From: Candidatus Harrysmithiimonas galli
GTDB lineage: Bacteria; Bacillota; Bacilli; CAJFEE01
Length of the DNA stretch: 64,000 nt
Assembly: GCA_904373265.1 (NCBI GenBank)
Contig: CAJFEE010000002.1
Location: forward strand, 62,001 to 126,000
Reading direction: 5' to 3'
Shown here: positions 34,067 through 61,479 of the stretch, piece after piece
Layout: every line of letters starts with the position of its first letter
Position numbering within the stretch: position 1 is the stretch's first letter
Position numbers and translations under genes: made by a program
Notes under the pieces: model-generated
What the model saw: the letters and a program-made list of their open reading frames with translations, nothing else
Database searches by the model: none
What the model was told of the DNA's origin: nothing

Positions 34067-34088
34067 AGTACAAATCCTCCTCAAAATT

Positions 34089-34852: not shown

Positions 34853-34878
34853 AATTACAGATTCCTTTCCTTTATTGA

Positions 34879-36297: not shown

Positions 36298-36299
36298 TT

Positions 36300-37004: not shown

Positions 37005-37025
37005 CCTACCGCCTCTTACTAAAAT

Positions 37026-37073
37026 AAAATATGCCATTAAAGTTAGAAATAACTAACTTCAATGGCATATTTT
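37026..37073. promoter_or_regulatory. Near-perfect 21-bp palindrome upstream of ecfT
   Basis: Two 21-base arms with one mismatch around a 6-nt spacer. The inner part is AAGTTAG-6 nt-CTAACTT and the outer parts are AT-rich (AAAATATGCCATT). It lies between the AraC gene stop and the ecfT ribosome site. See the similar element at 34089-34135. Confidence 0.55.
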
Positions 37074-38084: not shown

Positions 38085-38117
38085 GATCCATCCCCCCTTT
38101 TTATATAGGTTCGTTTT

Positions 38118-38138
38118 GACTAGCAATAAACTCTAGTC
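38118..38138. promoter_or_regulatory. Short palindrome upstream of the AraC gene
   Basis: GACTAG and CTAGTC separated by 9 bases, 34 bp upstream of the AraC start. Similar in kind to the TTAG/CTAA elements near the transport genes, though shorter. Possible operator. Confidence 0.3.
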
Positions 38139-40079: not shown

Positions 40080-43000
40080 TTACTTACTAAAATCTAAAAT
40101 TTTCTTTGCATTATATTCAATATACGGATGATTCATACAAGAAATATGATCCCCCTTCATCGTTCCAAAATGGAAATCATTTTTCGCATAGGGTTCCCAC
40201 GTTTCCTGATCTTCTGAAAACAGGCTAGGAAAGAAATTGGCAATCGCATCCTCACAATTAAATACCCTTAGTTTCCCTGAATACAATGGGGGTTCATAAA
40301 AAGAGACACATCTAAAATTCTGTGCAAAAACTCGAAATAATACATTCAACATTTTTCTTTGATGTTCCATTAATTGTCCATTCGGTCTTTCTATTGTGGC
40401 ATACAAATCATTCATTCTTTCTGTTGCACTCATATCGGCTAAACGGGTAAACTCCTCACCAGCCTCCGCAAATTCTCCTTTTAAGCTACATAAATCTTTA
40501 ACTGTAATCTGACCTTCATGATTAAAAATCAAAAATTCAATTATTCTCTGTAATGTACTATTATCTACTTTATGTCCTGCTTTCTGTATATTGGCATCTA
40601 TTAAACGAGCAAAAGTGCGCTCTAATAGCAATTCATTATATAAGCTTGTCTGAACTGCATGATAAAAAATTTCTTGAGGTAATTCTGCAAGTACAGTTTC
40701 TTTCTTTTTATGTGGAATGCTCGTACTCAACAAAGTAACACTAGAAACGTTTTTGTCATGTTTTTGCAAATATTGTGCAGTTTCCAGTGCAATCAATCCA
40801 CCGACACAATGACCAATTAATACATATTCAGAATATCCTAGCTCCGCTAATATCTTGCCATATTTATCCCCTAGAACTTTGAATATTTTTTCCGTTGGAA
40901 TTGCTAAATACTCAGCTTCATCTCCAAAAGTAAATCCATAAACTGCATCACCTTCACCGCTTCTTTCATTGATATAAGCTATCAATGAATGATAAGGTGT
41001 GAGCGTTCCTGTTCCTGCATGAAACACCACAGTCACTTTATTTCTGTTTTGCAATGGTTCTTTTATAACAACCAATGACTTGTCTTTCTCCACATTATTT
41101 CTGTTTTCCGTTAAACTTTTAGCAATACCGCGTATTGTTGGCATTTTCATCATTTCTTTTAATAAATCATCCCATTGCCATGTCCTAGCTTCTATTATTT
41201 TTTCTCTCATTTTTGCAATTACTTGTGCTATTAAAAGTGAATCTCCTCCAACTAAGTAGAAATTATCATTTCTGCCAATCTGATCGACATTTAATTCTTT
41301 ACACCAAATTTTTGCTATTTCTTTCTCCAACCCTGTTTGTGGTAGATCAGCACCACCCATGTTGCTTTCGTCACTTGCCTGGTCAGAAAACCATTCTGCA
41401 ATTTTCTTTCTATCAATTTTTCCATTCGATGTTTGAGGCAGTTCTGGAACAAATAAAACTTGAGATGGCACCATATATTCTGGCAATTTTTGTTCTAATT
41501 TATCCAACAATCTCTCTTTTTTAATCCTTGCATATGCTTCTTTAAACCGAATCACATATACTGTCTGACCTGCCATTTCTAAAATATCGCCTTTTTGGGG
41601 AAACTCATAGATAATTTCTGCATTGTTCTGTTCAAATATATCTTCCCATTGTTTTCTGGTAAAGAAGGTTTGATTATTCTCCTCTCTTTCATCTGTAAAT
41701 CCGGTTAATCCATCTTTAAATTCCATAGACGTTAATAAAGTATAGGATTCCCTTGTTTCCTCCAGTATTATCATTCTTCCGTTTGGTTTTAATAATTTTT
41801 TCAAGTTTTCAAAGACATCATGTATGTTTTTTGCATTATGCAATACATTTGCAGCTAAAATGATATCAAAGGAAAATGCCTTATACTTTTGTTCTATTAC
41901 ATCAACATTAATATCAAAAATCCCATACTTTACCCATTCATACTGACCAAACTTTTCTTTTGCATGATTCAAAAAGAATGTTGATAAATCAGTAAAATAG
42001 TATTCAGCACCTGTACCATCAAGCGCTGGAATGACATCCACCGATGTACCTCCAACACCCGCTCCAACTTCCAGCACTTTAATCGAATTCTCTATCTTAT
42101 ATTTAGCCAAATAAGATATTTCTGCTTTTGCTAATCCGTTCATAATCTTATTGATAATATTATCGTGATAGGCTGCCATAGCTACATCCATTTCACCTTT
42201 AGGAAATAACAAATTTAACGGATCTTCCTTTCCTGCCATTAGTTCTGGAAGCATACTGCTGGATGTTTTTAAATAATCCAGCAGTTTTTTGCTGTAATGA
42301 AGTTTATCTTCTACCGCATACATCGTCTTCCATAAATCTGTATCTGAATACGCTATTGCTACTATGCTATTAACTTTATATCCCCCGTTTTCACTATGAA
42401 TTATAATATTTTCTTTGCATAAAACATTCAACCATCTACTCATTAATTTGTGTAATTTTTCAGGAACATTTAATTGATTAATAATTTCTTTGAAACTATA
42501 TTCTCTTGATTCTTCATGAAAGATTCCTTTGTTATACAGAGTCAAAAAGATATCCGATAACACAACTTTGTTAGCCGTTTCAATCCAAAGTGGCAGCAGA
42601 TTTCTATCAATCTCTTGTGTAAGTTCACTTTCACATTTATCAATATTTTTTAACTCATCTTCTCTTATATATATGTCATGAAACATTTCTTTTTTCTTTG
42701 GAACAATGACAGTTGCAATGTACATATCTTCTTGGGCATTACCTAAAACAACGGAAACAACCTCCTGGATATCTTGATCATCGCTTAAAATAGAATCTAT
42801 CTCGGATAACTCTATTCTATGCCCTCTTATTTTTACCTGATTATCGGATCTACCCAAAAATTCGATCATACCATTTTCATCATATTTTCCAACATCGCCG
42901 GTTTTATATATTCTTTCTTTGGTCTTTAAGTATAAGAATTTCTCTCTTGTAAGCTTTTCATCCTTAAAATATCCAACAGCAAGACCTTCTCCTGCGATAT

Positions 43001-45624: not shown

Positions 45625-46365
45625 TCATGATTTTAAATATTTACTGGCAATTTCATTAATCATATCTAATACCTTTATTAGTTCTGACTTTATAAAAAAA
45701 TGATTCCCATCAAAAACTTTCATAGTAAAGAGATCTGAATAGTCTTTCCATTGTCTCATGTCTTCTTCATTCGCTTCTACATCATGTTTCCCGCAAAAAG
45801 CGGTAATTGGACAGTTCACTTTCTTTTTACTTACATCATAATATTCTTCATCCATGGTAAAATCAGTCTTTAATAATGGTAAAAATAGTTTCATTATTTC
45901 TTTATTTTGTAGAACTTCCACAGGCGTTCCTTCAAATCTATATAACTCCTTTAAAAAAGCTTCATCTGGCAAATGACCTATCGGTTTAGGTTCTGGTATA
46001 TGTGGAGCTCTACTACCAGAAACTATTAGTTCAACACTCCCCATCGCTTTCAACGCCATCGCCTTCTCTAATTCATACGCCACTTTCGCTCCCATGCTAT
46101 GTCCAAAAAGAATATATGGTTTTTGGACCACTACATCCATTTCCTCTAGCAAATCAGGAATCATATCATGAATGGATTCGTATGGTGTATCCACAATACG
46201 ATTCTCCCTTCCTGGCAATTGAACCGCATATAACCCAACTTTAGAATTTAGTCTTTTTTTCCAAGCATAGTATGCAGACGCACCTCCTCCAGCATAAGGA
46301 ATACAAAGCAGATTCACTTCTTCTCGTTCTTTTGCCATCGATATTTTTTCAATCAATTTTTCCAA
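45625..46365 (-). CDS. Type II thioesterase (proofreading)
   Basis: 246 residues, GrsT/PchC family. Landmarks: LLCIPYAGGGASAYYAWKK, QLPGRENRI, the nucleophile elbow FGHSMGA (Ser at about residue 88), an Asp in CGKHDVEA and the His in DGNHFFI. It removes wrong or blocked groups from carrier domains. The TTG at 46365, six bases after AGGAGG, is the likely start; the ATG at 46392 lies inside the preceding NRPS gene without a site. It is placed between two NRPS genes, 10 bp on either side. Confidence 0.9.
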   Translation of the reverse strand: MEKLIEKISMAKEREEVNLLCIPYAGGGASAYYAWKKRLNSKVGLYAVQLPGRENRIVDTPYESIHDMIPDLLEEMDVVVQKPYILFGHSMGAKVAYELEKAMALKAMGSVELIVSGSRAPHIPEPKPIGHLPDEAFLKELYRFEGTPVEVLQNKEIMKLFLPLLKTDFTMDEEYYDVSKKKVNCPITAFCGKHDVEANEEDMRQWKDYSDLFTMKVFDGNHFFIKSELIKVLDMINEIASKYLKS

Positions 46366-46375
46366 TGGTCTCCTC

Positions 46376-49300
46376 CTATATTGCCCCTTCATCTAAAAGT
46401 GAACTTTCTACTAATCTTTGTTCAATTTCTGTACTTAATGTTTTTATTGTAGAATTCAAAAATAGATCTTTCATTTCTAATTTTACATTGGGATAATTTT
46501 TATTGATCCGACTGACTACCTCTACAGCACGTAAACTATCTCCTCCACATTGAAAGAAATCATCGTTTCGCAAAAATTTATTTTTATATTTAAGGACTTC
46601 TTTCCATATTTGTCCAATGGATTTTTCCAACTCAGTGAATAAAAATTCTTCCTCTAACCTCCCATTTTCACCTTTTTGTACATTCGCCCATAATTGTTTT
46701 AAATCAACCTTCCCATTTTCATTCAATGGCATTTCACTCACCACACAAATCGTATCTGGCAAATAATAATCGGGCATTTTTTTCTTCAATGAAGCCATTA
46801 ATTTCTCCAAATCAATAGAATTCGTTCCCTTGGCACATACAAAAGCGTATATTTTATAATCTTTATAGCCCACTTTAGCTTGCTTCACATATTCAATACT
46901 CTGTAAAACATTTTCTATTTCTCCTAGTTCTATCCGGTATCCTCGTTTCTTAATTTGTGTATCTTGTCTGCCTAAAAACCATATACATCCATGGATCAAT
47001 TTCCCACGATCTCCAGTTTTATAGATGCGTTCCCCCAATTCATTGTTATATAGAAATTTACGTTCAGTTAAATCCTTATGATTTAAATATCCATCTGCAA
47101 GTCCTGCTCCAGCTATGTATAGTTCACCTTCCACATATTCAGGACATAATAATAAGTCTTCATTCAAAATATAATATTTTTGGTTCGTCAATGGATAACC
47201 ATAGGGTATACTGGGCCAATCCACATCTATTTCTTTCGGTTCGTAATAATTAGACCATATAGCGGCTTCCGTTGCCCCACCTAAACAAACTATACGTGCC
47301 TGTGGCATAATCAAATGAATTCTACTTGGTAAATCTTTATTAATTTTATCACCACTTAATAAGATCAAACGAACTGTAGCAAATTTTTCTATTTGGACAT
47401 CATTCATTTCTACATATGTGCATAACATTTCCATGAATGTTGGCACTGAGTTCCATATTGTAATAAAATTCTCATGGATTAGTTCAACCCATTTCCGTGG
47501 ATTTTTAACATCTTCCTCTCGCGGTACTACTATTGCAGCTCCTGCCTCAAACATGCCAAATACATCATACACAGAAAGATCAAAGGCAATATTAGACAAT
47601 GCCAAAACTCGATCATTAGAGCCAACAGAATATCTTTTATTTATATCTAGTATGGTATTATTAGCAGCTCGATTTGATATAACTACTCCTTTCGGAATGC
47701 CTGTACTACCAGATGTAAAAATAATATAGGCAATTTGATTCTCTCGTACATAATCTACATCTCTATAATTAATCTTCTGAGAAATTTCTTCTACGCATAT
47801 ACATTTTGTATTGAATTGGTTTTCCATTTGATTCAGGAGTCTTCTGCTTGTTATGAGAACATCAATCTCTGCTTCTTTTATGATGGTATGGACTCTCTTT
47901 TCTGGGTTATGAATATCAATTGGAATATAGGTTGCCCCTACCATAGTTGCCGCAAGTACACTTTCAACTTGTTTGATACCTTTTTCCAAAAAAATTCCTA
48001 TTCTTTTACTGTGTAATAATTCAACAGATAATTGTTTTGCTGCATATTTACAATCTCTATAAGAATATTTACTGTTATCATAAATTATGGCTATGTTATC
48101 AGGCGATTTCTTGTATGAATTATAAAAATATTCATATAAATTATTTTCTGATAATAGCGTGGTATCTAATTCTGTCTTAGGTACTGTTTCGCTTAAAATC
48201 TTAATATGGCTTCGCATAGGTTTTTCCCATAATTCTTTTTGATCCAAAGAACCCAAAAACTGCTGATAACACTCAAACATATGTTGTATCATACATGTAT
48301 GAAATTTTCCCTTTAAGACATCCCAATTAAAATATAGTTCCCCTTTATATTCACGTACTTGATAGTCTAGCCAAACTTGAGGTGTCTGAGTCAAACCATA
48401 GGTATATTTTCCTGGCATACTCAGTGAATCAGCACTTCCCAACATACTTGTAAATACAATCGGAAACGCATTTCCCAAAGGCACTTCATTTTCTTTTGTC
48501 CAAATTCTTTGTATCTCCAAGCCATCAAAATAACTATAATTCATATTTTGAACGACTTCGCTTTGCACAGCCTTGCACTTATCTATAAATGTAATTTCTT
48601 TTCCGTTTTCTATAGATACCAACACGATATCTGTAAATTCTCCAAGAACAGATTCATACACAGTATCATATAATCCTTTTTTATTCACTGTCACATTGAT
48701 TGTAAATTTCTTTTCACTACACCATCGGTATAAAACTTCAGAAAAAGCAGTAAGCAAAATACTACTCGGTGTTAAACCATAGGCATTTGCCAGAGATTTA
48801 ATGTGATTCCATTTTTCTGCTGGCAAAATTTCCATCATCCTAAAAAATTCACCAGTAATATTTTTATTTAATATCGGAAGTTCTGGCTTACCTACAATCG
48901 TTCTGATTTTTTCTCTCCAGAATACTTCAGAAACCCTATAATTTTCTGTATCCTTAATCAAACTCAAGCTTTCTACATAATCCCTAAACGGTTTACCAGC
49001 ATTCACAGTCTCAAATTTGTTTCCATTATATAAATATTCCCATTCATCCAGTAGTAAACATATGCTGCTTCCATCCAATATAAGATTGTCAAAACTGATA
49101 TGTATGCAAAAATTGTGTTGCATAGATTTTGAAATTCGGATATCAAAAATAGGCCAACGTTCTACATCCAGGACTTGAGTTTCCATCTGCTTTCGTAATT
49201 CTAAAAATTTATCTTCCTGAGCGCCAAAATCATAAAATTCCAAACGATACTTAGGAGATTTTTCCAATATATATTGAGACATTGTTTTTTTATCCATTAC

Positions 49301-49768
49301 AATCCGTAATGCCTCGTATTTACCAATCAACAAATTCCAAGTATCTTCTAAAAATTCGATATCTAATTCATCTCTTTCCAATTCAATATAAAAATGTGAC
49401 GATACTCCATAACTTCCCAAAACGGTCTCTCTTCCTAATAAATATGCTTTTTGTATAGGTGTTAATGGAAAATATTTTTCAGTTACATCATATTTAGGAA
49501 GCGATATTTTAAAAAAGTTATTGGGTTGCATCATCTGCAATTCCTGTATCCGTGCCGCCAGCAATGCAATCGTAGGATAATCAAAAATATCCTGAAAATT
49601 TATCGTAACAGAAAATGTTTTCCTTATTTTCTGAAGTATTTTTACAGCAAGAATAGAATTTCCTCCCATAGCAAAAAAATTTTCATCTGTACTGGCAATT
49701 TCTATATTTAATTCCTGTTCAAATATTTCCTTTATATTCTCTTGTAGATGAACTAGACTTTTCTCCAT
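46376..49768 (-). CDS. NRPS: carrier-Cy-A-carrier
   Basis: 1130 residues. Carrier 1 with MGGNSILA (Ser about 35); Cy domain with DNLILDGSS at about 228 and SMLGS, TQTPQVWLDYQ; adenylation domain with FTSGSTGIPKG at about 685 and NENGKVDLKQ at about 1019; carrier 2 with CGGDSLRA at about 1076. The pocket residues (FDLSVYD, TIWNSVPT, LILLSGD, CLGGATEAAIW) fit the cysteine code. The extra N-terminal carrier in front of a Cy is the arrangement that needs loading in trans or a preceding Cy from another protein. The start overlaps the previous NRPS gene by 50 bases. Confidence 0.92.
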   Translation of the reverse strand: MEKSLVHLQENIKEIFEQELNIEIASTDENFFAMGGNSILAVKILQKIRKTFSVTINFQDIFDYPTIALLAARIQELQMMQPNNFFKISLPKYDVTEKYFPLTPIQKAYLLGRETVLGSYGVSSHFYIELERDELDIEFLEDTWNLLIGKYEALRIVMDKKTMSQYILEKSPKYRLEFYDFGAQEDKFLELRKQMETQVLDVERWPIFDIRISKSMQHNFCIHISFDNLILDGSSICLLLDEWEYLYNGNKFETVNAGKPFRDYVESLSLIKDTENYRVSEVFWREKIRTIVGKPELPILNKNITGEFFRMMEILPAEKWNHIKSLANAYGLTPSSILLTAFSEVLYRWCSEKKFTINVTVNKKGLYDTVYESVLGEFTDIVLVSIENGKEITFIDKCKAVQSEVVQNMNYSYFDGLEIQRIWTKENEVPLGNAFPIVFTSMLGSADSLSMPGKYTYGLTQTPQVWLDYQVREYKGELYFNWDVLKGKFHTCMIQHMFECYQQFLGSLDQKELWEKPMRSHIKILSETVPKTELDTTLLSENNLYEYFYNSYKKSPDNIAIIYDNSKYSYRDCKYAAKQLSVELLHSKRIGIFLEKGIKQVESVLAATMVGATYIPIDIHNPEKRVHTIIKEAEIDVLITSRRLLNQMENQFNTKCICVEEISQKINYRDVDYVRENQIAYIIFTSGSTGIPKGVVISNRAANNTILDINKRYSVGSNDRVLALSNIAFDLSVYDVFGMFEAGAAIVVPREEDVKNPRKWVELIHENFITIWNSVPTFMEMLCTYVEMNDVQIEKFATVRLILLSGDKINKDLPSRIHLIMPQARIVCLGGATEAAIWSNYYEPKEIDVDWPSIPYGYPLTNQKYYILNEDLLLCPEYVEGELYIAGAGLADGYLNHKDLTERKFLYNNELGERIYKTGDRGKLIHGCIWFLGRQDTQIKKRGYRIELGEIENVLQSIEYVKQAKVGYKDYKIYAFVCAKGTNSIDLEKLMASLKKKMPDYYLPDTICVVSEMPLNENGKVDLKQLWANVQKGENGRLEEEFLFTELEKSIGQIWKEVLKYKNKFLRNDDFFQCGGDSLRAVEVVSRINKNYPNVKLEMKDLFLNSTIKTLSTEIEQRLVESSLLDEGAI

Positions 49769-52700
49769 CTGCGTTTAACTCTCCTTTTAATTTGCTAATA
49801 TATCTTGCCAATTCTTGAATGTTAGGATGTTTGAATATATCATACGGAGATAGTTTTATACCAAATTGACTTTTTACTTTAGCTGCTATTCGCATAGCAG
49901 AAACAGAGTCTGCGCCCATAGCATAAAAATCATCTTTCAAATTTATTTCATTTTCCCAAAAAATCTCTTGACAAATAAGAACCAATTCCTTTTCAAACTT
50001 GGAACTCTCCAATTGTATATCCATTTTTTTTGGAACCAAGTATCGCTCTAATTCTTTACGATCTATTTTTCCGTTTCGATTTATCGGCATATTAAACAAT
50101 CGATATATATGAGTCGGAAGCATATCATTTGGAAGTTGCTTTGCCAACTCATCTCTAATATCCTTTTCTTTGATATTTGCACACTTAGTATAAAAAGCAG
50201 CAATCCTTTTTTGTCTTTTCTGAAATATAACTGCCGCACTACCTACTCCCTCAATAGAATTCATAACTTTCTCGATTCCATCTAATTCAATTCTTCTTCC
50301 ATTGATTTTAACTTGCCGATCTTTTCTTCCCAAAAACAGAATCTCCCCATTTTCAAGATACTTGCCGCAATCCCCAGAATTATAAACTCTGGTATCTTTA
50401 TATTGCATAAACTTTTCTTGACCATCCTGTCCTACATAACCAGGAGAAACGCCCTCTCCAGCAATATACATTACTCCCTCTTTTCCAATCGGACATAACT
50501 GCATATCTTTTCCTAAAATAAAATATTGCGTATTAGGGAAAGGTTTCCCATATGGAATCTTACCCTCTAGAATGTCTGCATAGGATACTTCATGATAAAT
50601 ATTCCATATTGTCGTTTCTGTCGGTCCGCCTACATTAAATACCCTACATTTCTGGTTTATTTCCTTAATTTTTTTAACAGTTGCAACTTGTAAATAATCG
50701 CCTCCTTGAATCACTACTTTTAAATTTTTAAGCACCTTTTTTAATTTGTCCTTTTCAACCAAAATAAGCATTTCCAAAAAAGCGGGTACGGAATTCCAGA
50801 CTGTAACTGCATATTTAGTCATCAAATCAACCCATATGTCCGGATTTTTATAATTCTTCTGATCAGGAATAACAATTGTTCCACCAATATAAGACATACC
50901 TAAAATATCAAATATGGACATATCATGGCTATAATTCGTTAAATTAAAAATCACATCATTTGCTGTTATACCAAAAATATTTGAAGACATTTGAATACAA
51001 TTTATAATTCCCTCTTTTTCTAATTTCACCGTTTTAGGAAAACCCGTTGTACCTGATGTATTTATCAATATCATAATTTCATTTCGTAATGGTTGTATAT
51101 ATTCTGTATCTTCACAATAATCACTAACTGTACTCCCCATTCGGAGAAGTTGCATACCAAATTTCTGTATGCAGTCTAATTCACTTGTCAAATCTGTGAT
51201 GAGCATCTTTATCCCTATATTCTTGATACAATATTCAATTGCTTCTTTAGGAAGCGCATAATCTAATGGAATAAAGGGAATATTCATGTAAGCTAAAGCT
51301 AACTCGCATGCAACTTGTATTGTACTTTTTGGCATATATATCCCTACAATATCACCAGTTTGTAATTTATATTTTTGTATAAATATTTTACCTATATTTT
51401 TGCAAAATCTTTCTAATTGTCCATAAGTAATTTTCGTATATTGATCTATAATGACAGGTTTATCCTTATAATCGGAAAAATTCATTCTTAACTTCTCATG
51501 GAATGAGCTTCCTTTTTCCTTTTCTATTATTTTATGAGTTCCTTCAATAATCTTCCTATCTGTTTCTATAAGTGGAATATCTGTCATTTCATGCAAAAAG
51601 CATTCATTATATCCAATACAATTTAATGTTTCAATAAAGTAATCTGCTATTTTTTCAGGAATCATACGTTCAAACATCTCATCTACATAGCTTAAAGTAA
51701 ATAGCACTCCTTTTGATGTTTTAGTCATTAGCCCTTCAAGCCATACCTGACTGGTATATGTTTTTGTACATATTTTTCTAAAATGTACATTTTGTTCCGG
51801 TTTACTGTTTAATGTACTTGTAAAAACAACAGGAGCAATTATTTCTTCTTTTCTAGTATGCCTTAATAATTTGGTTTGATCCGACCCCATAAAATACATT
51901 CCATACTCTCTTATTTCAAATAATTTTTCCTGATTGATTTTTATCTGTTCCATAAGACTGATTTCTTTATCATTATGAAAATCCAATAAAATAAAATTCG
52001 AACATAAACCAATCAAATGCTCTATTCCTTTTAGTTCTACTGGCCGCTGCATCACAGGAAGGTTAATAAGAAATTTCTCATTATACGAATATTTCCCTAT
52101 CACCTTACCAAAAATCGTTAATAATAAAGCAAAAACCGTTACACCATTTTCTTTTGCAATTTCACACAATTTCTTATACTGCTGGTCACTTATTTCTTTA
52201 GAAACGATTTTAACCATTGGATTTTTTATTTCTTCAGGAGCTCTTTTTAATGGTAATTGTGGTTTCATATCATACCCATCAAATCTTATACTCAAGGCTT
52301 CTTTTGCCTCTTTATATTGTTCTGTTTCTTTTATCTTTAATAAATATTCAGTGTATTCAGGGAATGTTATATGTTCTTCTACTTTTTGACCGTAGTAATA
52401 TCTTTCAAGTTGTCTTAGTATGATTTGATGGCTCTCTCCATCCGCAATTATCCCATCATGACATAAATGTACAATTGTCTTTATATCGTCCATCCGAACT
52501 ATTAAGAAACGTATAAGCGGTCCTTTTTTTATATCAAATTCTTTGCTAAACATTTCTTCAGACAATCTCTTAGTTATGACTTTTTTCTCTTTTTCTTCTA
52601 CATCTCTAAGATCTTTATATTCACACCAGAATTTTGCTTCTTCATTGATATACATTGTATCCTCATTTTCAATTCCTGCTCTAAGCATTTCCTGAGAGAA

Positions 52701-53090
52701 CACCAATTTTCTAATCGCAGCTTCAAGGCGAACTTCATCAATTTCTTCTCCCTCAAAGGCAAAATATGCATGCGACCCGAATCCGCCTAAAATCATTTCT
52801 TCTTTTCTGCCGAGCAAATATGCTTTTTGCAGATCAGTCATTTTAAACAAATTCCTGTTCTTTGGTTTCTCACTCTTTTCATTAAGTAAGTTATATAAGT
52901 CATTAAGATTACCATTCGAAAATAGTACCCGAATTGGAATTCTTAATCCATATACTTTTTTTATCTCAACTTGCAATCTTCCAAAAAACAAAGAGTCACC
53001 ACCATATTTTATAAAAGATTCACCCTCATCAATTTCTTCTCTATTTAATAAATACAAAATATTTCTTTTTAAATCTTTTTTATTTATCAT
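49719..53090 (-). CDS. NRPS: (aryl) carrier-Cy-A-carrier
   Basis: 1123 residues. The N-terminal carrier (YGGDSLFFGRL, Ser about 30) is the likely aryl carrier partner of the AMP ligase. Cy domain: HDGIIADGES at about 215 (DxxxxDxxS), YTSQVWLEG. Adenylation: INTSGTTGFPKT at about 680, NRNGKIDRKE at about 1005. Carrier 2: MGADSVSA at about 1058. The adenylation pocket differs from the other two modules (SHDMSIFD, TVWNSVPA, VVIQGGD, NVGGPTETTIW), giving roughly D-M-F-N-(I)-G-V-I-W, so cysteine is not certain. The start is taken as the ATG at 53090, directly after the upstream stop; a TTG at 53108 is possible. It matches the first part of PchE/HMWP2. Confidence 0.9.
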   Translation of the reverse strand: MINKKDLKRNILYLLNREEIDEGESFIKYGGDSLFFGRLQVEIKKVYGLRIPIRVLFSNGNLNDLYNLLNEKSEKPKNRNLFKMTDLQKAYLLGRKEEMILGGFGSHAYFAFEGEEIDEVRLEAAIRKLVFSQEMLRAGIENEDTMYINEEAKFWCEYKDLRDVEEKEKKVITKRLSEEMFSKEFDIKKGPLIRFLIVRMDDIKTIVHLCHDGIIADGESHQIILRQLERYYYGQKVEEHITFPEYTEYLLKIKETEQYKEAKEALSIRFDGYDMKPQLPLKRAPEEIKNPMVKIVSKEISDQQYKKLCEIAKENGVTVFALLLTIFGKVIGKYSYNEKFLINLPVMQRPVELKGIEHLIGLCSNFILLDFHNDKEISLMEQIKINQEKLFEIREYGMYFMGSDQTKLLRHTRKEEIIAPVVFTSTLNSKPEQNVHFRKICTKTYTSQVWLEGLMTKTSKGVLFTLSYVDEMFERMIPEKIADYFIETLNCIGYNECFLHEMTDIPLIETDRKIIEGTHKIIEKEKGSSFHEKLRMNFSDYKDKPVIIDQYTKITYGQLERFCKNIGKIFIQKYKLQTGDIVGIYMPKSTIQVACELALAYMNIPFIPLDYALPKEAIEYCIKNIGIKMLITDLTSELDCIQKFGMQLLRMGSTVSDYCEDTEYIQPLRNEIMILINTSGTTGFPKTVKLEKEGIINCIQMSSNIFGITANDVIFNLTNYSHDMSIFDILGMSYIGGTIVIPDQKNYKNPDIWVDLMTKYAVTVWNSVPAFLEMLILVEKDKLKKVLKNLKVVIQGGDYLQVATVKKIKEINQKCRVFNVGGPTETTIWNIYHEVSYADILEGKIPYGKPFPNTQYFILGKDMQLCPIGKEGVMYIAGEGVSPGYVGQDGQEKFMQYKDTRVYNSGDCGKYLENGEILFLGRKDRQVKINGRRIELDGIEKVMNSIEGVGSAAVIFQKRQKRIAAFYTKCANIKEKDIRDELAKQLPNDMLPTHIYRLFNMPINRNGKIDRKELERYLVPKKMDIQLESSKFEKELVLICQEIFWENEINLKDDFYAMGADSVSAMRIAAKVKSQFGIKLSPYDIFKHPNIQELARYISKLKGELNADGEKSSSSTREYKGNI

Positions 53091-53092
53091 AT

Positions 53093-54370
53093 TTATTTTT
53101 TTCTCCAATTCCCAATATCATTTAATTTTAAAATATATTTAATATATGTATTGAATATATTTGCAATTTCAACCTCATCCAATACCTCTTTCAAAATCAC
53201 CCATGTAAAAAATAATCCATCATCTTTCCGATAAACCTGTGCATCTAACCATACTCCTGGTGTTTGGGAAATTATATATACCAACTCTCCAATATTACTT
53301 GTAAATTCCGCTGTAACAATTGGCATATTCAAACTAGGTGAAAACACAAATGGTACTGGATATTTTTCGTTAGTTGATTTTTTTATAATGGTTTGAATTG
53401 ACAATCCATCTAGGCAGCAATGTGACCAATCTTTCCTATAAATCTCATACATTGAATCAAAAAACTTCTTAAAACACATATCCGTTTCAGATTCACATTT
53501 AAAAATAATACTCTTTGTAAAATCCCCCACTATATTCAAATTTCTTTGATTCCTTTCAGACAAAAGATAATTAACCAAAATTCTCTTCTTCCCTGTTTCT
53601 TGTAAAACCACATAACAAAGAACAATTAAGAGATACACCTCTACTGTAACACCCTGTTTTACTGCTAATTTAACAATTGAATCATATTCTTTATTCTCAA
53701 TTTCTGATTGAAAGCTTATATAATTATATTGAGATAATTCCTGGATATTCTTTTGCACTTTAAATGGAAATTCTATATAATCATTTCCCATCCGCTCTTG
53801 CCAATATCTTTTTGCTTTTAATACCTCATCCTGACAAATGATATTTTTTACTTCTATTTCTTCACCCGACTGATAAAATATACCTTTACCATCTCGTATT
53901 TTCATATACATATCCGCTAAGTCTTTTAATATCACTTGAAAACTATGTACATCACAAATTACCAAATCCAATTCAAATCCAATACGACAGATCTTATCTT
54001 GAGATTTTATTACATGCAGTTGACACGCGACTTCATTTTCAACATCCAGAATCTGATGAGAAATTTTCTGTCTTATATTCTTTCTTTCAAACTCACCAAT
54101 ATCCCACTCCTTATATGCCTTATAACATTGTATTTGCTTAAAATCACCAATATATAAAATTCCACAATCATCGCAACGTGCCCGCATCATTGGATGAATT
54201 TTGAACAACTCTGCCCATGCTGCTTTTAAACTTTTTTCTTCAATATCTTTTTTTGTTTGAAATTCCATGTATACATGGCATGGAACCCCCATATTTTCAG
54301 CAGTGTTTTTTCTTTCAATCATATATGCACATTGCAATGGAGTCATTAGTACCATTTTTTCCTCGTTCAT
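53093..54370 (-). CDS. Stand-alone heterocyclization (Cy) domain protein
   Basis: 425 residues, one condensation-superfamily domain and nothing else. It has the cyclization motif DLVICDVHS (DxxxxDxxS) at about 142 in place of HHxxxDG, and late Cy motifs FVFSPSLN and ISQTPGVWLDAQ. It should join a carrier-bound amino acid to the growing chain and close a thiazoline or oxazoline ring, acting in trans. It lies between the AMP ligase and the first NRPS. The start is the ATG at 54370 after GTGAGGTG; the upstream stop overlaps this site. Free Cy domains are rare compared with embedded ones. Confidence 0.88.
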   Translation of the reverse strand: MNEEKMVLMTPLQCAYMIERKNTAENMGVPCHVYMEFQTKKDIEEKSLKAAWAELFKIHPMMRARCDDCGILYIGDFKQIQCYKAYKEWDIGEFERKNIRQKISHQILDVENEVACQLHVIKSQDKICRIGFELDLVICDVHSFQVILKDLADMYMKIRDGKGIFYQSGEEIEVKNIICQDEVLKAKRYWQERMGNDYIEFPFKVQKNIQELSQYNYISFQSEIENKEYDSIVKLAVKQGVTVEVYLLIVLCYVVLQETGKKRILVNYLLSERNQRNLNIVGDFTKSIIFKCESETDMCFKKFFDSMYEIYRKDWSHCCLDGLSIQTIIKKSTNEKYPVPFVFSPSLNMPIVTAEFTSNIGELVYIISQTPGVWLDAQVYRKDDGLFFTWVILKEVLDEVEIANIFNTYIKYILKLNDIGNWRKK

Positions 54371-54378
54371 GTTACACC

Positions 54379-55914
54379 TCACAATAAGTCACATAATTTT
54401 TTCTTATCTATTTTCCCAACTGCTGTATAAGGAAATTGCTCTACAATTTTCAATGTATCTGGAAGTTTAAACGATGCCAGCCCTTCATCTGTTAAAAATT
54501 CCCGCATTTCATCTAATCCAATTTCTTTCCTACAAGTCACATACGCACAAATTCTGTTGCCTAAAATAGAATCTTCAACTCCTACAACTGCACAATCAAT
54601 AATATTCGGATTTATTTGAATTATTTCTTCAACTTCACTAGGCATAATCTTTTCTCCTGCTCGATTGATTTGCTCACGAACACGTCCCAAAATTTGGATA
54701 TTTCCACCATGAACTACTCTTGCCTTATCTCCTGTTAAATAAAATCCATCTTCATTAAAATAACCTTGCTGATCTGACAACAAATAGTAGTCCCGAATCG
54801 TGTATGGACCCTTCGTTATTAGCTCCCCTATTTCACCCTTTAAAACCTCATTTCCATTCTCATCTACAATTTTGATTTGATCCAATTCACTAATTGGTCT
54901 TCCTTGACAAGAAACTCTAATTTCATATGTGTCATCTGGAGAATTCATACAAATTAATCCTTCTGCGGTGCCAAATACTTGTATTAATTTTCCGTTTAAT
55001 ACTGCATCAACTTTTCTTGCTGTCTCCTCTTGCAGCATGGCACCACCAACTAAAATCATTTCTAAGGACGATAAATCATCACAATCATCTATATTTCTAT
55101 ACGCCATACACATTTTAAGGATAGATGGCACAAGCGCCATATATGTTACCTTTTCTTTCTCAATTAAAGAAAAAATTTCAATAGGTGCTGCATCCTGACA
55201 TATAACAACTGTGCCACCATTCATTAAAGTTCCTAAAAGTCCAGGATTTGCCAAAGCAAAATTATGTGCCATCGGTATAACAGCCAAAAAAATACTTTGA
55301 TCATTCACTTTACATCTCTGTGAAACTTTTTGTACATTGTATATATAGTCTCCATGGGTTCGGGGAATCAACTTGGGTATTCCTGTAGTACCTCCAGATA
55401 ATAAAAGCAATGCCACATCATCTGGATTTATTGGATGAATGGAATGTTGCCCTTTCTTACTGATACGCATTCTTACATCAATCGCTTGCGAAAAGAATGC
55501 TTTATCTAATTTGCCAAAGCAGATATGATTTTCCTCTATTAGTTTTTCAATATGCTTATTTTTTGTATCATAAATGTACATTTTAGGATGCACAGTTTTT
55601 AATATTCCTTCAATCTCTCGAGTCTTTTGTGCTGGCAATATCAAGATCGGAATGACTCCCATCGCAAGAAACGTCAAGATACACACAACGAACTCCGCAT
55701 GATTCTCCATTTGAACTGCTACTTTATCGCCCTTTGAAAGTCCAATTTTTTCTAATTTTTCCCAACAGTAATCTACCATTTTCCCTAATTCTTCATATGT
55801 TATTCTTCGGTTTCCATCCACTAAGGCTGTTTTACTTTCAAATGTTTCTGTCCAGTTTAAAATTTCTTTTGAAAAAACATACTCATTCCATTTTTCTTGT
55901 ATCAGTTCAATCAT
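54379..55914 (-). CDS. Aryl-acid AMP ligase (DhbE/YbtE-like)
   Basis: 511 residues. It adenylates an aromatic acid and loads it on an aryl carrier domain. Motifs: LSGGTTGIPKLIPRTH at about 175, MAHNFALANPG at about 217, FGTAEGLICM at about 316, TGDKARV and the catalytic lysine in AVGKIDKKK. Known ligases carry HNxxLSS (2,3-dihydroxybenzoate) or HNxxLxC (salicylate) in the second motif, as I recall; here it is HNFALAN, and Ile stands where dihydroxybenzoate enzymes have Val and salicylate enzymes Leu. The substrate may therefore differ from both. The start shares ATGA with the preceding stop. Confidence 0.88.
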   Translation of the reverse strand: MIELIQEKWNEYVFSKEILNWTETFESKTALVDGNRRITYEELGKMVDYCWEKLEKIGLSKGDKVAVQMENHAEFVVCILTFLAMGVIPILILPAQKTREIEGILKTVHPKMYIYDTKNKHIEKLIEENHICFGKLDKAFFSQAIDVRMRISKKGQHSIHPINPDDVALLLLSGGTTGIPKLIPRTHGDYIYNVQKVSQRCKVNDQSIFLAVIPMAHNFALANPGLLGTLMNGGTVVICQDAAPIEIFSLIEKEKVTYMALVPSILKMCMAYRNIDDCDDLSSLEMILVGGAMLQEETARKVDAVLNGKLIQVFGTAEGLICMNSPDDTYEIRVSCQGRPISELDQIKIVDENGNEVLKGEIGELITKGPYTIRDYYLLSDQQGYFNEDGFYLTGDKARVVHGGNIQILGRVREQINRAGEKIMPSEVEEIIQINPNIIDCAVVGVEDSILGNRICAYVTCRKEIGLDEMREFLTDEGLASFKLPDTLKIVEQFPYTAVGKIDKKKLCDLL

Positions 55915-56663
55915 GATTTTCTCCTTTTTACCTCATTTACTATCTGATTTATGCTTGATATAAGTTCCTTCTCATTATTGAGAAATGCGTAATGCCCCCC
56001 TCTAACCACTATCTTTCTAAACTGCTCTGTATACTGATTCCAGCCTAAAACATTTATTTCTTTTATTTTTGAATCATTTGGATCATACATTGCAATAATT
56101 GGACATTTAAATTTTTCTTTTGTAACCAAATAATTTGCATATAATCTAAAATCTTCACGAAGTATAGGGAAATAATATTCAATAAATTCAGGAATATACA
56201 AAATTTCTTTTTCAACTAAGTTTTCATTTATTAAATATTCCATAATAACGGCATCATCTGCATCACACATTACTTTTGCTTCTTCTGGTACAATTGCTGG
56301 TTGCTGTGAACTTGATACAATTAGAAATATTGGTTCCACCCCATAAACCTTCTTTGCTATCCTTGCAATTTCATAACCTAATATGGCTCCCGTACAATGA
56401 CCAAAAATGGCATACGGCTTTGTAAGTAATTCTGCATTCTCCGTTATAAAATCCATAGCTAATTTTGATACACTCTCAGGCATATTCTCTTTCCTTCGTG
56501 AATCTCTAAATGGCAATAAAATTGGACAAATTAAAATATTTTGTTCAAAATCACTTTGCCATTTTGCAAATAAACTCGCACTTGCTCCGGCATAGGGAAT
56601 ACACAATAACGATATTTCTTTATCATTTATTTCATCACTTCCAATAATCCATTTGTTTTTCAT
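55911..56663 (-). CDS. Type II thioesterase with Cys nucleophile
   Basis: 250 residues, same family as the second thioesterase in this operon: SLLCIPYAGASASLFAKWQ, LPFRDSRRKENMPES, then the elbow IFGHCTGAILGYE at about 89 with Cys in place of Ser, an acidic region MYDPNDSKI and the catalytic-His region RGGHYAFLN. Probable editing enzyme for the assembly line; the Cys may alter specificity towards thioesters. It overlaps the phosphopantetheinyl transferase gene by 29 bases and the AMP ligase by 4. Confidence 0.88.
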   Translation of the reverse strand: MKNKWIIGSDEINDKEISLLCIPYAGASASLFAKWQSDFEQNILICPILLPFRDSRRKENMPESVSKLAMDFITENAELLTKPYAIFGHCTGAILGYEIARIAKKVYGVEPIFLIVSSSQQPAIVPEEAKVMCDADDAVIMEYLINENLVEKEILYIPEFIEYYFPILREDFRLYANYLVTKEKFKCPIIAMYDPNDSKIKEINVLGWNQYTEQFRKIVVRGGHYAFLNNEKELISSINQIVNEVKRRKS

Positions 56664-57336
56664 TTTCTAAGCTTATCCTTTCCTGCATAACATTTAAATC
56701 AACAACTTTAAAATGCATTGTTTCTTTGGCACAGCTTGCAATAAAAATATTACCTATCCTTTTTGTCATAAACTTACATTGATAGGCCTCGAAATTTGTT
56801 AATATCTCAAATTGTGAAAAATCCAGACTATCCAATCTATCATTTAATCCGATTCCCACATATTTCAGGTAACTTTCTTTTAATGTCCAATACCATGTAA
56901 ATAATTCTTCTGGGTTATGATCATCACAAACTCTTCTAATTTCATTCTGACATAATGACATTTTTAAAATATCTTTAATTTCTTTAATACAATCTGAAAT
57001 ATCAACACCCACAGCATGATTTGAAAACGCACAACAGACAGCTTTTCTACAATTTGCAATATTAAAGTACTTTCTGGATAGAGTAGCAAAATACGGTTTA
57101 CCGAATCTTGTACACTTCAATTCATCTGATGTAATATTCAGTTTATTAATGATGCAAGCATATTGAAAAAGAGAATACGATAAAGTATATTGAATTTTAT
57201 CAATCCTATGACGATAACTGTTCACCTGTTTTCTCCTAAACAGTGGCAGATGTGAATAGAAAAAATGATATTGAGCAGCACTCATACTTTCCTCATTGAA
57301 TTCACATATATAAATTTCACCATTTATTTTCATTCT
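56635..57336 (-). CDS. 4'-phosphopantetheinyl transferase (Sfp type)
   Basis: 233 residues. It attaches the phosphopantetheine arm to the five carrier domains of this cluster. Sfp motifs: LKCTRFGKPYF, AVGVDISDCIKEI (metal-binding Asp, about 112) and WTLKESYLKYVGIGL (Lys/Glu pair, about 152). The ATG at 57336 is five bases after GGAGG and gives the family-typical MKINGEIYI; a longer reading from 57390 has a weaker site. First gene of the biosynthetic operon. Confidence 0.9.
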   Translation of the reverse strand, partial: RMKINGEIYICEFNEESMSAAQYHFFYSHLPLFRRKQVNSYRHRIDKIQYTLSYSLFQYACIINKLNITSDELKCTRFGKPYFATLSRKYFNIANCRKAVCCAFSNHAVGVDISDCIKEIKDILKMSLCQNEIRRVCDDHNPEELFTWYWTLKESYLKYVGIGLNDRLDSLDFSQFEILTNFEAYQCKFMTKRIGNIFIASCAKETMHFKVVDLNVMQERISLENEKQMDYWK

Positions 57337-57422
57337 TTCCTCCAGCAACACAGTTTCCATATCAATACGTACATAAATAAGAAAAAGCATTTTATCCTTA
57401 TCTTATAAATTTGCTGTTAAAA

Positions 57423-57437: not shown

Positions 57438-57454
57438 TATTCATATCATTCTAA

Positions 57455-58010
57455 CTCACGCCAAAACACATGGGCACGGGTTCAGGAATCCAAGTGTTCC
57501 CTTCCAGTCGTTGTACCTTTCCTCATCTTTGTATTCTTATACAAATTAGTTACCTTACATAAATTGTGGAATGATCTGTCAGAAAAGATACTATTTCACA
57601 TATTTCAATTTTTGTCGCCACTTTCATATAAAACTTCTAATGTACGTCCTAATATATTTTTAAACTTTTTCCTAATAATTGCGGTTTCAACAATAGCAAC
57701 ATTGGTCTATCATCAATGAAGAACTTTTCTCCAATCTTATTTCTAGGTGAATATGAAGCTCTATATATAATCATGAGCACATTCTGCCATAATTTTGGAT
57801 GAAATGGACACCTCAATATATAAAATCTATAAGCAACCCTTTGTATCATAATTGCAAAAGATTCTAGGCGAGTTACAATAATTTTATAAGATTTTAAACG
57901 ATAGAGGCACTTCCATATGCTGATTGTATACCTGAAATAACCGATTGCTTATTCCTGAGAACGAACCAATAAATTGTTGTATAACTTCATTCTGGTCCAT
58001 AGACTCATCT
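57455..58010 (-). pseudogene. Decayed serine O-acetyltransferase (EpsC/CysE, long form)
   Basis: Several frames together spell out a serine acetyltransferase: IQSAYGSASIV, then FAIMIQRVAYRFYILRCPFH and YSPRNKIGEKFFID (compare the EpsC pattern FAIxxYRIAHxLY and HPGAKIGxxFFIDHG), then after a frameshift NVAIVETAIIRKKF and ILGRTLE (VVIGETAxIG and GVTLG), and finally NTWIPEPVP (NVWITESVP). Stops and frameshifts are many. The enzyme would make O-acetylserine for cysteine synthesis, the likely building block of the neighbouring NRPS, so its loss is notable. Confidence 0.7.
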
Positions 58011-58244: not shown

Positions 58245-58826
58245 CTAACTCTTGGGTAAAAAAATTTCTTTGAAATAGCCCAATATAAGACTTATTGACA
58301 AGATTATATGCGCCAACATCATACCTTTTGAAACCCATGAATATCCTATCATAAAAGTCAAACAGATGATTAAACATTCAATCCATAACAAGATTCGCAA
58401 ACGTTTTTTATAGACCATCCTCTCTATCAAATCAAGTTTTTTATTCCTGCATCCCACTGGTGATAAAGAAAAAATGCAACCCATTGCCACAATCCATAAC
58501 AAAAATGTAGCAAATGTAGGTACAGATACCTCTCTTAAATATATTCCCACTACACAAACCAAAACTCCTGACACCACAATACATTTCTCTGTTTTTTCTA
58601 AATGAATTCCACCAGCATACTGCCGCAAAGGAATAAACGCCAATAAAAACACAATAATTTCCTTTAAACTTCCCAACCATATGCCCAATACAACAATCAA
58701 CAAATACACAATCACTCTACAAATCAACAGGTTGTATGCATATTCATACAAATTACGCTCTTTCTCATCCAGCATCCCACACCTACATTGAGTGTCAAAC
58801 AATTGCTTGGCTACTTTCTCAATCAT
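58245..58826 (-). CDS. agrB: AgrB-like autoinducer peptide protease
   Basis: Integral membrane cysteine protease of 193 residues that trims AgrD at its C-terminus and closes the thiolactone. The catalytic pair is present in the family motif LRQYAGGIHLEKTEKC: His75 and Cys82, seven residues apart. Five to six helices follow. The ATG directly follows the agrD stop (TAAATG), so the two are co-translated. Residues around 24-31 (NLYEYAYNLL) match the N-terminal AgrB helix. Confidence 0.92.
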   Translation of the reverse strand: MIEKVAKQLFDTQCRCGMLDEKERNLYEYAYNLLICRVIVYLLIVVLGIWLGSLKEIIVFLLAFIPLRQYAGGIHLEKTEKCIVVSGVLVCVVGIYLREVSVPTFATFLLWIVAMGCIFSLSPVGCRNKKLDLIERMVYKKRLRILLWIECLIICLTFMIGYSWVSKGMMLAHIILSISLILGYFKEIFLPKS

Positions 58827-58985
58827 TTAAAATTTCCTCATTTTTTTTGCTTCCTCTGGTTCTTTTGGTTGTCCTAAAATCCACGCACAAGCTGTATTTG
58901 CTGTCCGAGCTACCAATACCATGGAAAAATAATTCACTATACGCATAAATTTCATAAAAATCTTAGATTCAACTAACTTTTTCAT
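58827..58985 (-). CDS. agrD: AgrD-like autoinducing peptide precursor
   Basis: 52-residue peptide, not found by length-limited gene calling. Residues 1-27 are an amphipathic leader (MKKLVESKIF, MKFMRIVNYFSMVLVA), residues about 28-37 the signal region (RTANTACAWIL), and the rest an acidic AgrD tail (GQPKEPEEAKKM) with the P-x-x-P-E-E spacing. By analogy with clostridial and listerial AgrD peptides, the AgrB cut falls after Leu37, giving a five-residue ring CAWIL closed between Cys33 and the Leu carboxyl, perhaps with one to three residues in front. AGGAGAT lies upstream of the ATG. Confidence 0.88.
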   Translation of the reverse strand: MKKLVESKIFMKFMRIVNYFSMVLVARTANTACAWILGQPKEPEEAKKMRKF

Positions 58986-59107
58986 ATAACAAAATATCTC
59001 CTTTTTTATTTTCTATCCTAAATTTAATCATTTATTCGCATTTTTACAATCCTATTGGCAAAAATGACATCTAACTTGGAAATTTTTGCTAAAAAAAGCA
59101 CTTGCAG

Positions 59108-60433
59108 CTATTGTCTATCACTTCTATCAATTGGAAAAATAATTGAGGCATTAAATTCCAAGTCATCTATATCAATCTTTAATTTTCCACCATAGGACTG
59201 TACGATCTTTTCCACAATATGAATCCCTATCCCATGTTCATCCTTACTATATTTACTTGTAATAAATCCTTTCCTTCCTAAAACCGGTGATGTCAGAAAA
59301 TTATTACGCATTTCCCAAACCATAAAATGTCCTTCATTTGCCATAAACATTTTAATTTTTACAAATCCGTCTTCTGACAATTTTGACGAAGCTTCAATTG
59401 CATTATCAATCAAATTTCCAACAATAGAAATCAAATCCATATCATCAATATGATCTACATATAAATCCTGTGAAAGATTGATATGATACTTTATTCCCAA
59501 CTCATCGGCCTTTATTTGTCTTTCATGTAAAATGGCATTTAAAATTTTATTGCTGCAATAATTTACATACGAAGTGCTTTTTATTTTGATGTCCAATTTT
59601 TCAAAGATTTGCAGTGCATGATTGGTATCTTTCGCTTGAATCAAATCTGCAGCGGTCCGAATATATTTTTTAATATCGTGCAATAAAGTTTTATACTTAT
59701 TATGAACATGCTCCATCTGCTGATAATATTTATTTTCTGCTGCACTTTTTACATACAATCGTTCCATTTTATTCGCCTTAGCCATCGTTGTTATTAATTT
59801 ATCAAAAATATAAAACATAAATATATTTACAAATAACAACATAATTACTCCTATTTCCAAAAACAATTTGTTCTTTTCAGGGATATGAATATCTGCATAA
59901 AACAAACCAACCAACAAAACCATTGTTGCAACTGGCAGCACAAGAAGATAACAGAATATCCCATTTCTAACCTCATCATATTCTTTCTTTTTATAAATCT
60001 GTTCCACACACTTCACAATAATAAAGGTGATCATCTTAGCTGCCAGGAGCAGACATAATCTGCTTAGTTCATTTTCTAAGACTTTCTCTGCATCATGATA
60101 GTTGCTCAAACTAAATATAGTCGATATTACAAATTCTGGTACCATTGCAAGCATATAAAAGCAGACCGCGCTACTAATACATTTCAAAATAGATTCTGAG
60201 TAACTGATAATTGTATAAATACAGTATATGACTGGAACACTAAATAAATTTGCTAATGTATTGTGAAAGCTATTAACCAATGCTAGGATACCTACTACAA
60301 AAAACATCATGATAGGAACATAAAATCCCTTATACCTTTTCCGATTCCCCAATAAAGTCTTCAAAAAGCAATTTAGCATCATTACTTCAAAACAACAGGT
60401 CAATAATATTTCTCCCATTTTAAATACGATCAC
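59108..60433 (-). CDS. agrC: AgrC-like GHKL sensor kinase
   Basis: 441 residues. About six membrane helices occupy residues 1-215 and bind the peptide signal. The kinase core has the phosphoacceptor His252 in LLHDIKKYIRT, an N-box DLISIVGNLIDNAIEAS and a G-box DEHGIGIHIVEKIV, with the HATPase_c_5 (GHKL) pattern of AgrC, ComD and VirS. The start is either the GTG at 60433, which overlaps the agrA stop, or the ATG at 60418. Partner of the response regulator directly upstream. Confidence 0.9.
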   Translation of the reverse strand: MIVFKMGEILLTCCFEVMMLNCFLKTLLGNRKRYKGFYVPIMMFFVVGILALVNSFHNTLANLFSVPVIYCIYTIISYSESILKCISSAVCFYMLAMVPEFVISTIFSLSNYHDAEKVLENELSRLCLLLAAKMITFIIVKCVEQIYKKKEYDEVRNGIFCYLLVLPVATMVLLVGLFYADIHIPEKNKLFLEIGVIMLLFVNIFMFYIFDKLITTMAKANKMERLYVKSAAENKYYQQMEHVHNKYKTLLHDIKKYIRTAADLIQAKDTNHALQIFEKLDIKIKSTSYVNYCSNKILNAILHERQIKADELGIKYHINLSQDLYVDHIDDMDLISIVGNLIDNAIEASSKLSEDGFVKIKMFMANEGHFMVWEMRNNFLTSPVLGRKGFITSKYSKDEHGIGIHIVEKIVQSYGGKLKIDIDDLEFNASIIFPIDRSDRQ

Positions 60434-61161
60434 TTCCTCTTATACCTCAATCGTAAAAAATCAGAAAATCTATCATCAAAATTTTTCTGTTTGGATCTTG
60501 AGATGTTTAACTCCGTCCTATCTTTTAACATAATCACATTTTTAGTGACACGAATGATATTTGCCATGTTGACAATATAACTGTTATGAGCATATTCAAA
60601 CCCTTCTCCTGACAATCTGAAATATAACTCTTTAACCGTTTGACGACAAAACAACTTCTCACTCTCTTTACCAGGATAGTAGCAAATTGCAGATCCTCTC
60701 TTTATCACTGATATATATAAAATCTGATTGATTGGAATTCTATATACTTGACCATCCTCTGTAATATTTAGATATTGTACATTTTTACGGCCAATCATCT
60801 CCTGAATAATATCTGACATCTCTTCCTTTGCCATCTGATTATACAAATCTTTCATAATATATCTATATGGCTGCACTTTAAATGACTCAGGCGTTGGATC
60901 TTGATAATTTGTACAGAATACCAAAACAGCTTCTTTATTAACATTCCGAAATGCTTTGGCAGTTTCATTTCCGTCTATTCCTGGCATCTGGATATCTAAA
61001 AAGAGTAGATTGTGCATCTGCCCAATATCTGCTAACAACTCCTCTCCAGAAGAATATTCATAAAAAAGTACATCTCTACATAACGTATCATTAGCTGCAA
61101 TCAAATTTCTAATAGACTTTCTGTAACTAACATCATCATCACAGATTGCCACTTTGAACAT
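60430..61161 (-). CDS. agrA: AgrA-like LytTR response regulator
   Basis: 243 residues. Receiver domain 1-125 with the acidic pocket CDDD and phosphoacceptor Asp56 in LLFLDIQMPGIDG. LytTR DNA-binding domain from about 140: ILYISVIKRGSAICY, FEYAHNSYIVNMANI, NISRSKQKNFDDRFSDFLR. Its targets would carry LytTR direct repeats; I could not place a convincing pair upstream of agrD. Ribosome site AGAGGAG. Confidence 0.92.
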   Translation of the reverse strand: MFKVAICDDDVSYRKSIRNLIAANDTLCRDVLFYEYSSGEELLADIGQMHNLLFLDIQMPGIDGNETAKAFRNVNKEAVLVFCTNYQDPTPESFKVQPYRYIMKDLYNQMAKEEMSDIIQEMIGRKNVQYLNITEDGQVYRIPINQILYISVIKRGSAICYYPGKESEKLFCRQTVKELYFRLSGEGFEYAHNSYIVNMANIIRVTKNVIMLKDRTELNISRSKQKNFDDRFSDFLRLRYKRK

Positions 61162-61178
61162 AACATCACTCCTCTTAG

Positions 61179-61192
61179 TTAGTCATGACTAA
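61179..61192. promoter_or_regulatory. Perfect 14-bp palindrome upstream of agrA
   Basis: TTAGTCATGACTAA lies between the XRE regulator gene and agrA, 18 bp before the agrA start. Candidate operator for the XRE protein or for the cluster regulator. Confidence 0.4.
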
Positions 61193-61236
61193 TCAATATA
61201 CAATAAAAAACCATCCATCAGCCTAAAACAAAACTC

Positions 61237-61479
61237 TTATTTCAGTTCCTGTTCTAAATCTGAAAAGATGGTATCCTCAAAGAAATCCTGAATTGAAATT
61301 TCTAAACCATCGCATAGCGTCTTAATCGTAACAATACCAACATTCTTACTTTTTCCGTACAAAATATTCTTTAATGTTGATGGCGGTATTCCAGATCGCA
61401 CAGCAGCTTCATTCACTGTAATTCCTTTTCGCATAATTTCTTTATTAATTCTTTCAATGACGGCTTCTTGTATATCCAC
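61237..61479 (-). CDS. XRE-family helix-turn-helix regulator
   Basis: 80-residue DNA-binding protein. A Cro/C1-type fold covers residues 8-70: INKEIMRKGITVNEAAVRSG (helices 1-2), IPPSTLKNILYGKSK (recognition helix), TIKTLCDGLEISIQDFF. It starts with a GTG nine bases after AAGGTGG. It lies 75 bp upstream of agrA on the same strand and is the likely local repressor of the agr genes. Confidence 0.85.
   Translation of the reverse strand: MDIQEAVIERINKEIMRKGITVNEAAVRSGIPPSTLKNILYGKSKNVGIVTIKTLCDGLEISIQDFFEDTIFSDLEQELK

Follow-up and report, generated by a model that had tools for sequence, protein, structure and literature searches.

The question raised by this locus is whether an agr-type quorum-sensing cassette controls the metallophore-type biosynthetic operon next to it. 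The window, i.e., the whole stretch of 64,000 nucleotides analyzed here, comes from a genome of 2.7 Mb and has a GC content of 33.5%. An earlier note on this DNA had claimed a complete agr-like system. Five genes were indeed found where that note had placed them, all on the minus strand and in the order XRE-agrA-agrC-agrD-agrB, and they passed the family tests. The first one encodes an XRE-type (HTH_26) regulator (61237 to 61479; PF13443, 3.6e-9). It is followed by agrA (60430 to 61161), encoding a response regulator with a LytTR DNA-binding domain (PF00072 and PF04397), and agrC (59108 to 60433), encoding a sensor histidine kinase (PF14501 [HATPase_c_5], 2e-20). Next come agrD (58827 to 58985), for a signal precursor of 52 amino acids (TIGR04223, 41 bits with a cut-off of 19), and agrB (58245 to 58826), for a signal-processing membrane peptidase (PF04647, 109 bits with a cut-off of 23). 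All five look intact; the ends of agrA and agrC share 4 bp, and agrD directly abuts agrB. The match of AgrC to the staphylococcal AgrC model was weak (1e-9), and its His is located in LLHDIKKYI. His75 and Cys82 of AgrB, which we take to be the catalytic pair by comparison with AgrB of Staphylococcus aureus, were aligned and invariant between the window and locus L066 (see below). A structure search with the AgrB sequence matched no solved structure. As far as sequence can tell, membership in the AgrB, AgrD, AgrC, and AgrA families confirmed that these genes form an agr quorum-sensing system.

The core of AgrD reads TACAWIL and is followed by GQPKEPEE. Following the pattern of known pentameric signals, the predicted thiolactone ring is CAWIL (codons at 58875 to 58889, minus strand, from the translation). 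This ring, already proposed earlier, was backed by an alignment of the window AgrD with four other AgrDs, and Eubacterium plexicaudatum encodes an identical core. Other loci in which agr is linked to a nonribosomal peptide synthetase (NRPS) operon have the predicted rings CAWIY, CNWLY, and CDWLY, the CNWLY core being common to Blautia, Anaerobutyricum, and [Ruminococcus] faecis. The ring chemistry would be that of a CAWIL thiolactone.

What does the neighboring operon make? All its genes are on the minus strand, as in the cassette. The first one after agrB encodes a 4'-phosphopantetheinyl transferase (56635 to 57390; PF01648) and is followed by genes for a type II thioesterase (55911 to 56663; PF00975) and an aryl-AMP ligase (54379 to 55914; TIGR02275 at 1e-142, under the cut-off of that model). 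The best PDB match of the ligase was 5wm2; its nearest solved structure is a salicylate-AMP ligase. Then follow a stand-alone heterocyclization (Cy) domain (53093 to 54382; PF00668, with the motif DLVICDVHS), two NRPS modules with Cy domains (49719 to 53108 and 46376 to 49768), a second thioesterase (45625 to 46392; PF00975), and an NRPS with Cy, A, methyltransferase, carrier, and thioesterase domains (40080 to 45614). A putative thiazoline reductase (38913 to 40007) matched only NAD-binding families, and its role is proposed from its position and from the equibactin locus. The remaining genes encode an alpha/beta hydrolase (38321 to 38932; PF00561), an AraC-type regulator (37143 to 38126; PF12833), the T, A, and S components of an ECF transporter (34235 to 37037), and two ABC transporter halves of a type that accompanies such clusters (30514 to 34084); homologues of these half-genes adjoin the operons in L047, L054, L055, and L059. 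The heterocyclization motif DxxxxDxxS was present in all four condensation domains, and HHxxxDG was present in none of the four. Judged by these domains, the operon is a thiazoline NRPS cluster of the equibactin/yersiniabactin type, and its product would chelate metal. No IdeR-like repressor of the EqbA type was found among the scanned genes between the XRE gene and the ABC genes, and the cluster was therefore not filed as equibactin itself.

The agr genes had been said to lie on the strand of the operon at a distance of about 0.9 kb, and the distance from the end of agrB to the next operon gene is 855 bp. This gap contains a decayed remnant of cysE, the gene for serine O-acetyltransferase (57445 to 57885, minus strand). 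A tblastn comparison of the gap with the CysE of E. plexicaudatum gave an E value of 6e-13 with in-frame stops, and blastn gave 68.7% identity over 262 bp. A short open reading frame in the gap was considered as a MarR regulator and rejected, since it had no Pfam match and the comparison with E. plexicaudatum identified the gap as a decayed cysE. An open-reading cysE is found at the corresponding place in the loci of E. plexicaudatum (L067) and genome G929 (L117). The presence of cysE beside the cassette would fit a supply of cysteine for thiazoline rings.

We then asked how agr could act on the operon. A promoter-like footprint with two half-sites 21 bp apart, a candidate AgrA site, lies before agrD (59047 to 59079, minus strand) and is conserved over seven loci, with 18 alignment columns invariant across them. 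In the agrC-agrD spacer, AAAATTTCCAAGTTAGATGTC and TTTTGCCAA..GGATTG are common to the window and E. plexicaudatum, and they were read as the half-sites. Even when up to 3 mismatches were allowed, the genome contained a single copy of the 25-base core of the footprint; the core is single in the window, and it had zero occurrences in shuffles of the window. A candidate -10 box of the agrD promoter (TAAATT, 59021 to 59026, minus strand) was picked by eye from its position relative to the footprint, and such a box follows the footprint by about 18 to 20 bp in the loci read by eye. Promoter matches in the window were no commoner than in shuffles. An RNA structure between agrC and agrD was rejected as a shared element, with a z score of -3.6 for the Blautia-type loci and 0.0 for the window, and an Rfam search gave no match. 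In the Blautia-type loci (L066, 4280 to 4380, and relatives), a long agrC-agrD hairpin overlaps the candidate operator; it is absent in the window.

From agrD to the operon, the minus strand showed no terminator-like site, and in L066 the gap between agrB and the thioesterase gene is about 84 bp, compared with the 855 bp in the window. Together with the footprint, these features suggest a single AgrA-driven transcript running through agrDB into the operon, with AgrA binding and read-through as its presumed steps. The sign of the regulation could also be the opposite, with AgrA repressing the operon at high density and the metallophore being a low-density product. The direction of regulation is not readable from sequence, and the 855-bp gap could hold a separate promoter for the operon. 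However, the position of the footprint relative to the agrD promoter is that expected of an activator site, and the lack of a detected terminator after agrDB, with the operon genes so close in L066, also speaks against repression. We consider repression very improbable, and activation by read-through is the reading retained below.

Is the linkage conserved in relatives? L066 is a 20-kb human-gut scaffold filed as phage (MT835721.1), in which XRE-agrA-agrC-agrD-agrB are followed directly by genes for a thioesterase, a phosphopantetheinyl transferase, a ligase, and an NRPS. Its proteins are 71% (XRE, at the matching place), 42% (AgrA), 33% (AgrC), and 49% (AgrB) identical to those of the window. 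MT835721.1, labeled "Bacteriophage sp." in GenBank, matches a chromosomal contig of Blautia wexlerae at 99.97% identity over 15 kb and looks like a bacterial fragment, perhaps borne by an integrative and conjugative element (ICE), rather than a phage. A genome scan with a single AgrB query returned nothing; an alignment of two AgrBs (window and L066) recovered relatives in E. plexicaudatum, B. wexlerae, Anaerobutyricum hallii, VE202-01, and [Ruminococcus] faecis. In all five genomes agr lies directly upstream of an operon of the thiazoline NRPS type and on its strand; in E. plexicaudatum this operon is a decayed remnant. Three further genomes (G1103, G931, and G929) have agr on the same strand directly upstream of an NRPS operon; several of the linked loci are near-identical recent transfers, and not all of them are independent. 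The XRE gene is present in most NRPS-linked loci and was not found in L116 and L067. In E. plexicaudatum ASF492 (L067, 7457 to 14182), the cassette is decaying: the agrA and agrC frames are split, the XRE gene is mostly lost, the phosphopantetheinyl transferase gene is interrupted by insertion sequences, and no NRPS was found within about 18 kb.

Among the AgrB matches in 397 genomes of the Blautia family, four scored above 200 bits, all of them NRPS linked, and the remainder scored at most 116 bits. The linked AgrBs formed one clade (support, 100/99) against ten free AgrBs. No relative was found in IMG/VR or in a plasmid collection. Every sampled member of this AgrB clade stands, on the same strand, upstream of a thiazoline NRPS operon or of what remains of one. 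A ligase or NRPS gene was found near none of 33 agr loci outside the high-scoring group, within the fetched flanks (the loci came mostly from the Blautia-family search, and a few flanks were shortened by contig ends). Density control of the metallophore, which had been proposed from proximity, is thus well supported by these comparisons as a probable link. The source genome of the window carries two other loci. One (L150 on contig C22, 10216 to 12523) has agrC-agrD-agrB with a predicted ring of CSYWV and no NRPS neighbor. The other, a third agr-type locus (L149 on contig C10, 7120 to 9376), has agrA, agrC, and agrD with a predicted ring of CVFTA and no agrB nearby; its AgrD precursor may rely on another AgrB.

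Cassettes and operons have also swapped partners. AgrC of G931 is 60% identical to that of the window and 37% identical to that of Blautia; for the ligase of G931, the identities are 39% with the window and 65% with Blautia. AgrC of G929 is 63% identical to that of Blautia, and the NRPS in G929 has three Cy modules and ends in a thioester reductase domain, with an AMP ligase that is separate and distant. In the locus of that genome (L117, 672 to 17262), the agr cassette is followed by the open-reading cysE and then by this different NRPS machine. In a ligase tree, agr-linked operons fell in two separate places, each next to agr-free ones, although several rows were long and the placement is unsure. 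At a finer scale, G1103 and Blautia are 84 to 91% identical through agr and 96 to 100% identical immediately past agrB, and Blautia and A. hallii are 97 to 100% identical through agr and 86 to 94% identical immediately past agrB. Between G1103 and Blautia, dS was 0.17 to 0.60 in the cassette and 0.03 to 0.09 in the next genes tested, and the recombination breakpoints were at the boundary between agrB and the operon (agrB/TE). These shifts in identity and dS indicate that the agr block was exchanged at this boundary, yet it stays attached to an operon of this kind. The dN/dS ratio within the cassette (0.06 to 0.29 for the same pair) indicates genes under purifying selection.

Could agr be an independent regulator that only shares a mobile island with the metallophore operon, without controlling it? 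Blautia, Anaerobutyricum, and R. faecis have nearly identical agr-operon blocks, which points to recent transfer, and a review describes ICEs with siderophore nonribosomal peptide genes in A. hallii (PMC13303155). However, the identical gene order recurs at 33 to 37% AgrC identity with different biosynthetic partners, and free agr loci, including one in the source genome, have no NRPS neighbor. What argues most for a functional tie, and against such hitchhiking, is that the agr block was exchanged at the agrB/TE boundary and was still kept on an NRPS operon. We therefore regard mere cotransfer as improbable and the functional tie as the better reading.

In 9 of 12 Lachnospiraceae with the ligase, the operon has no agr; the upstream flank was also read for 14 class members, and agr was absent in each case. 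The majority of such operons thus lack agr, which makes agr optional. This fits a reading in which metal supply, acting through the AraC regulator or an unseen metal repressor, is the main control and agr a minor modulator; equibactin is under the control of EqbA, an IdeR-like repressor (PMC3672683), and the AraC gene lies inside the operon. A Fur box before the operon was sought and rejected, since the window has 6 sites, fewer than the 19 that shuffles lead one to expect by chance, and none of them is near the operon. The agr tie, moreover, was kept through repeated exchanges. Predominant metal control appears rather unlikely to us, and a dual control by metal and agr is compatible with the main explanation.

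We thus consider it likely that, at quorum, a dedicated agr cassette activates its own expression together with that of the metallophore operon. AgrB would cut and cyclize AgrD into a CAWIL thiolactone, possibly N-extended, which AgrC would sense before phosphorylating AgrA. AgrA would bind the repeated site before agrD and drive agrD-agrB transcription in a positive feedback, and transcription would continue into the thiazoline-metallophore operon. Further inputs may come from the XRE and AraC regulators. The costly, shared metallophore would be produced only at a high density of producers; that is, the bacterium probably makes it only with enough neighbors. Metallophores are a textbook case of public goods, for which theory expects density-gated production. 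More tentatively, and with slightly less than even confidence, this distinct agr lineage may be a plug-in density switch for the thiazoline-metallophore operons of gut Bacillota, exchanged as a block across chemistries, in which case identical rings (CAWIL; CNWLY) would make metal scavenging shared or eavesdropped on across species. The pairing recurs in the common human gut species B. wexlerae and A. hallii. The predicted signals are synthesizable five-residue rings, and the agr-free relatives of the operons are natural controls, making the coordination of metal competition by peptide signals among commensals, as well as signal sharing across species, directly testable.

How does the locus compare with known systems? 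In the literature searchable here, we found neither an agr lineage devoted to metallophore operons nor an account of how it swaps partners, and no described quorum system dedicated to a metallophore in Gram-positive gut commensals. antiSMASH regions of the hybrid type "NRPS.cyclic-lactone-autoinducer" have been listed in Anaerobutyricum as an automatic label, in a text without mention of quorum or AgrD (PMC13303155). These regions have an AgrD-like gene beside an NRPS cluster, as in the window, and almost certainly include the A. hallii locus found here. With equibactin (Streptococcus equi, ICESe2) and yersiniabactin, the window shares the thioesterase, phosphopantetheinyl transferase, aryl-AMP ligase, and Cy-domain NRPSs, as well as the reductase-like and hydrolase genes and the ABC/ECF transporters. 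Unlike the equibactin locus, it has XRE-agr and an AraC regulator, and its NRPS is split into more proteins. With agr of Staphylococcus and the pentameric autoinducing peptides of Listeria and clostridia, it shares the AgrB, AgrD, AgrC, and AgrA families, the LytTR regulator, the Cys followed by four ring residues, and the conserved tail. It differs from them in its XRE-A-C-D-B order, its link to one biosynthetic operon, and a footprint that occurs once in the genome. All the parts belong to known families; it is their arrangement that is new.
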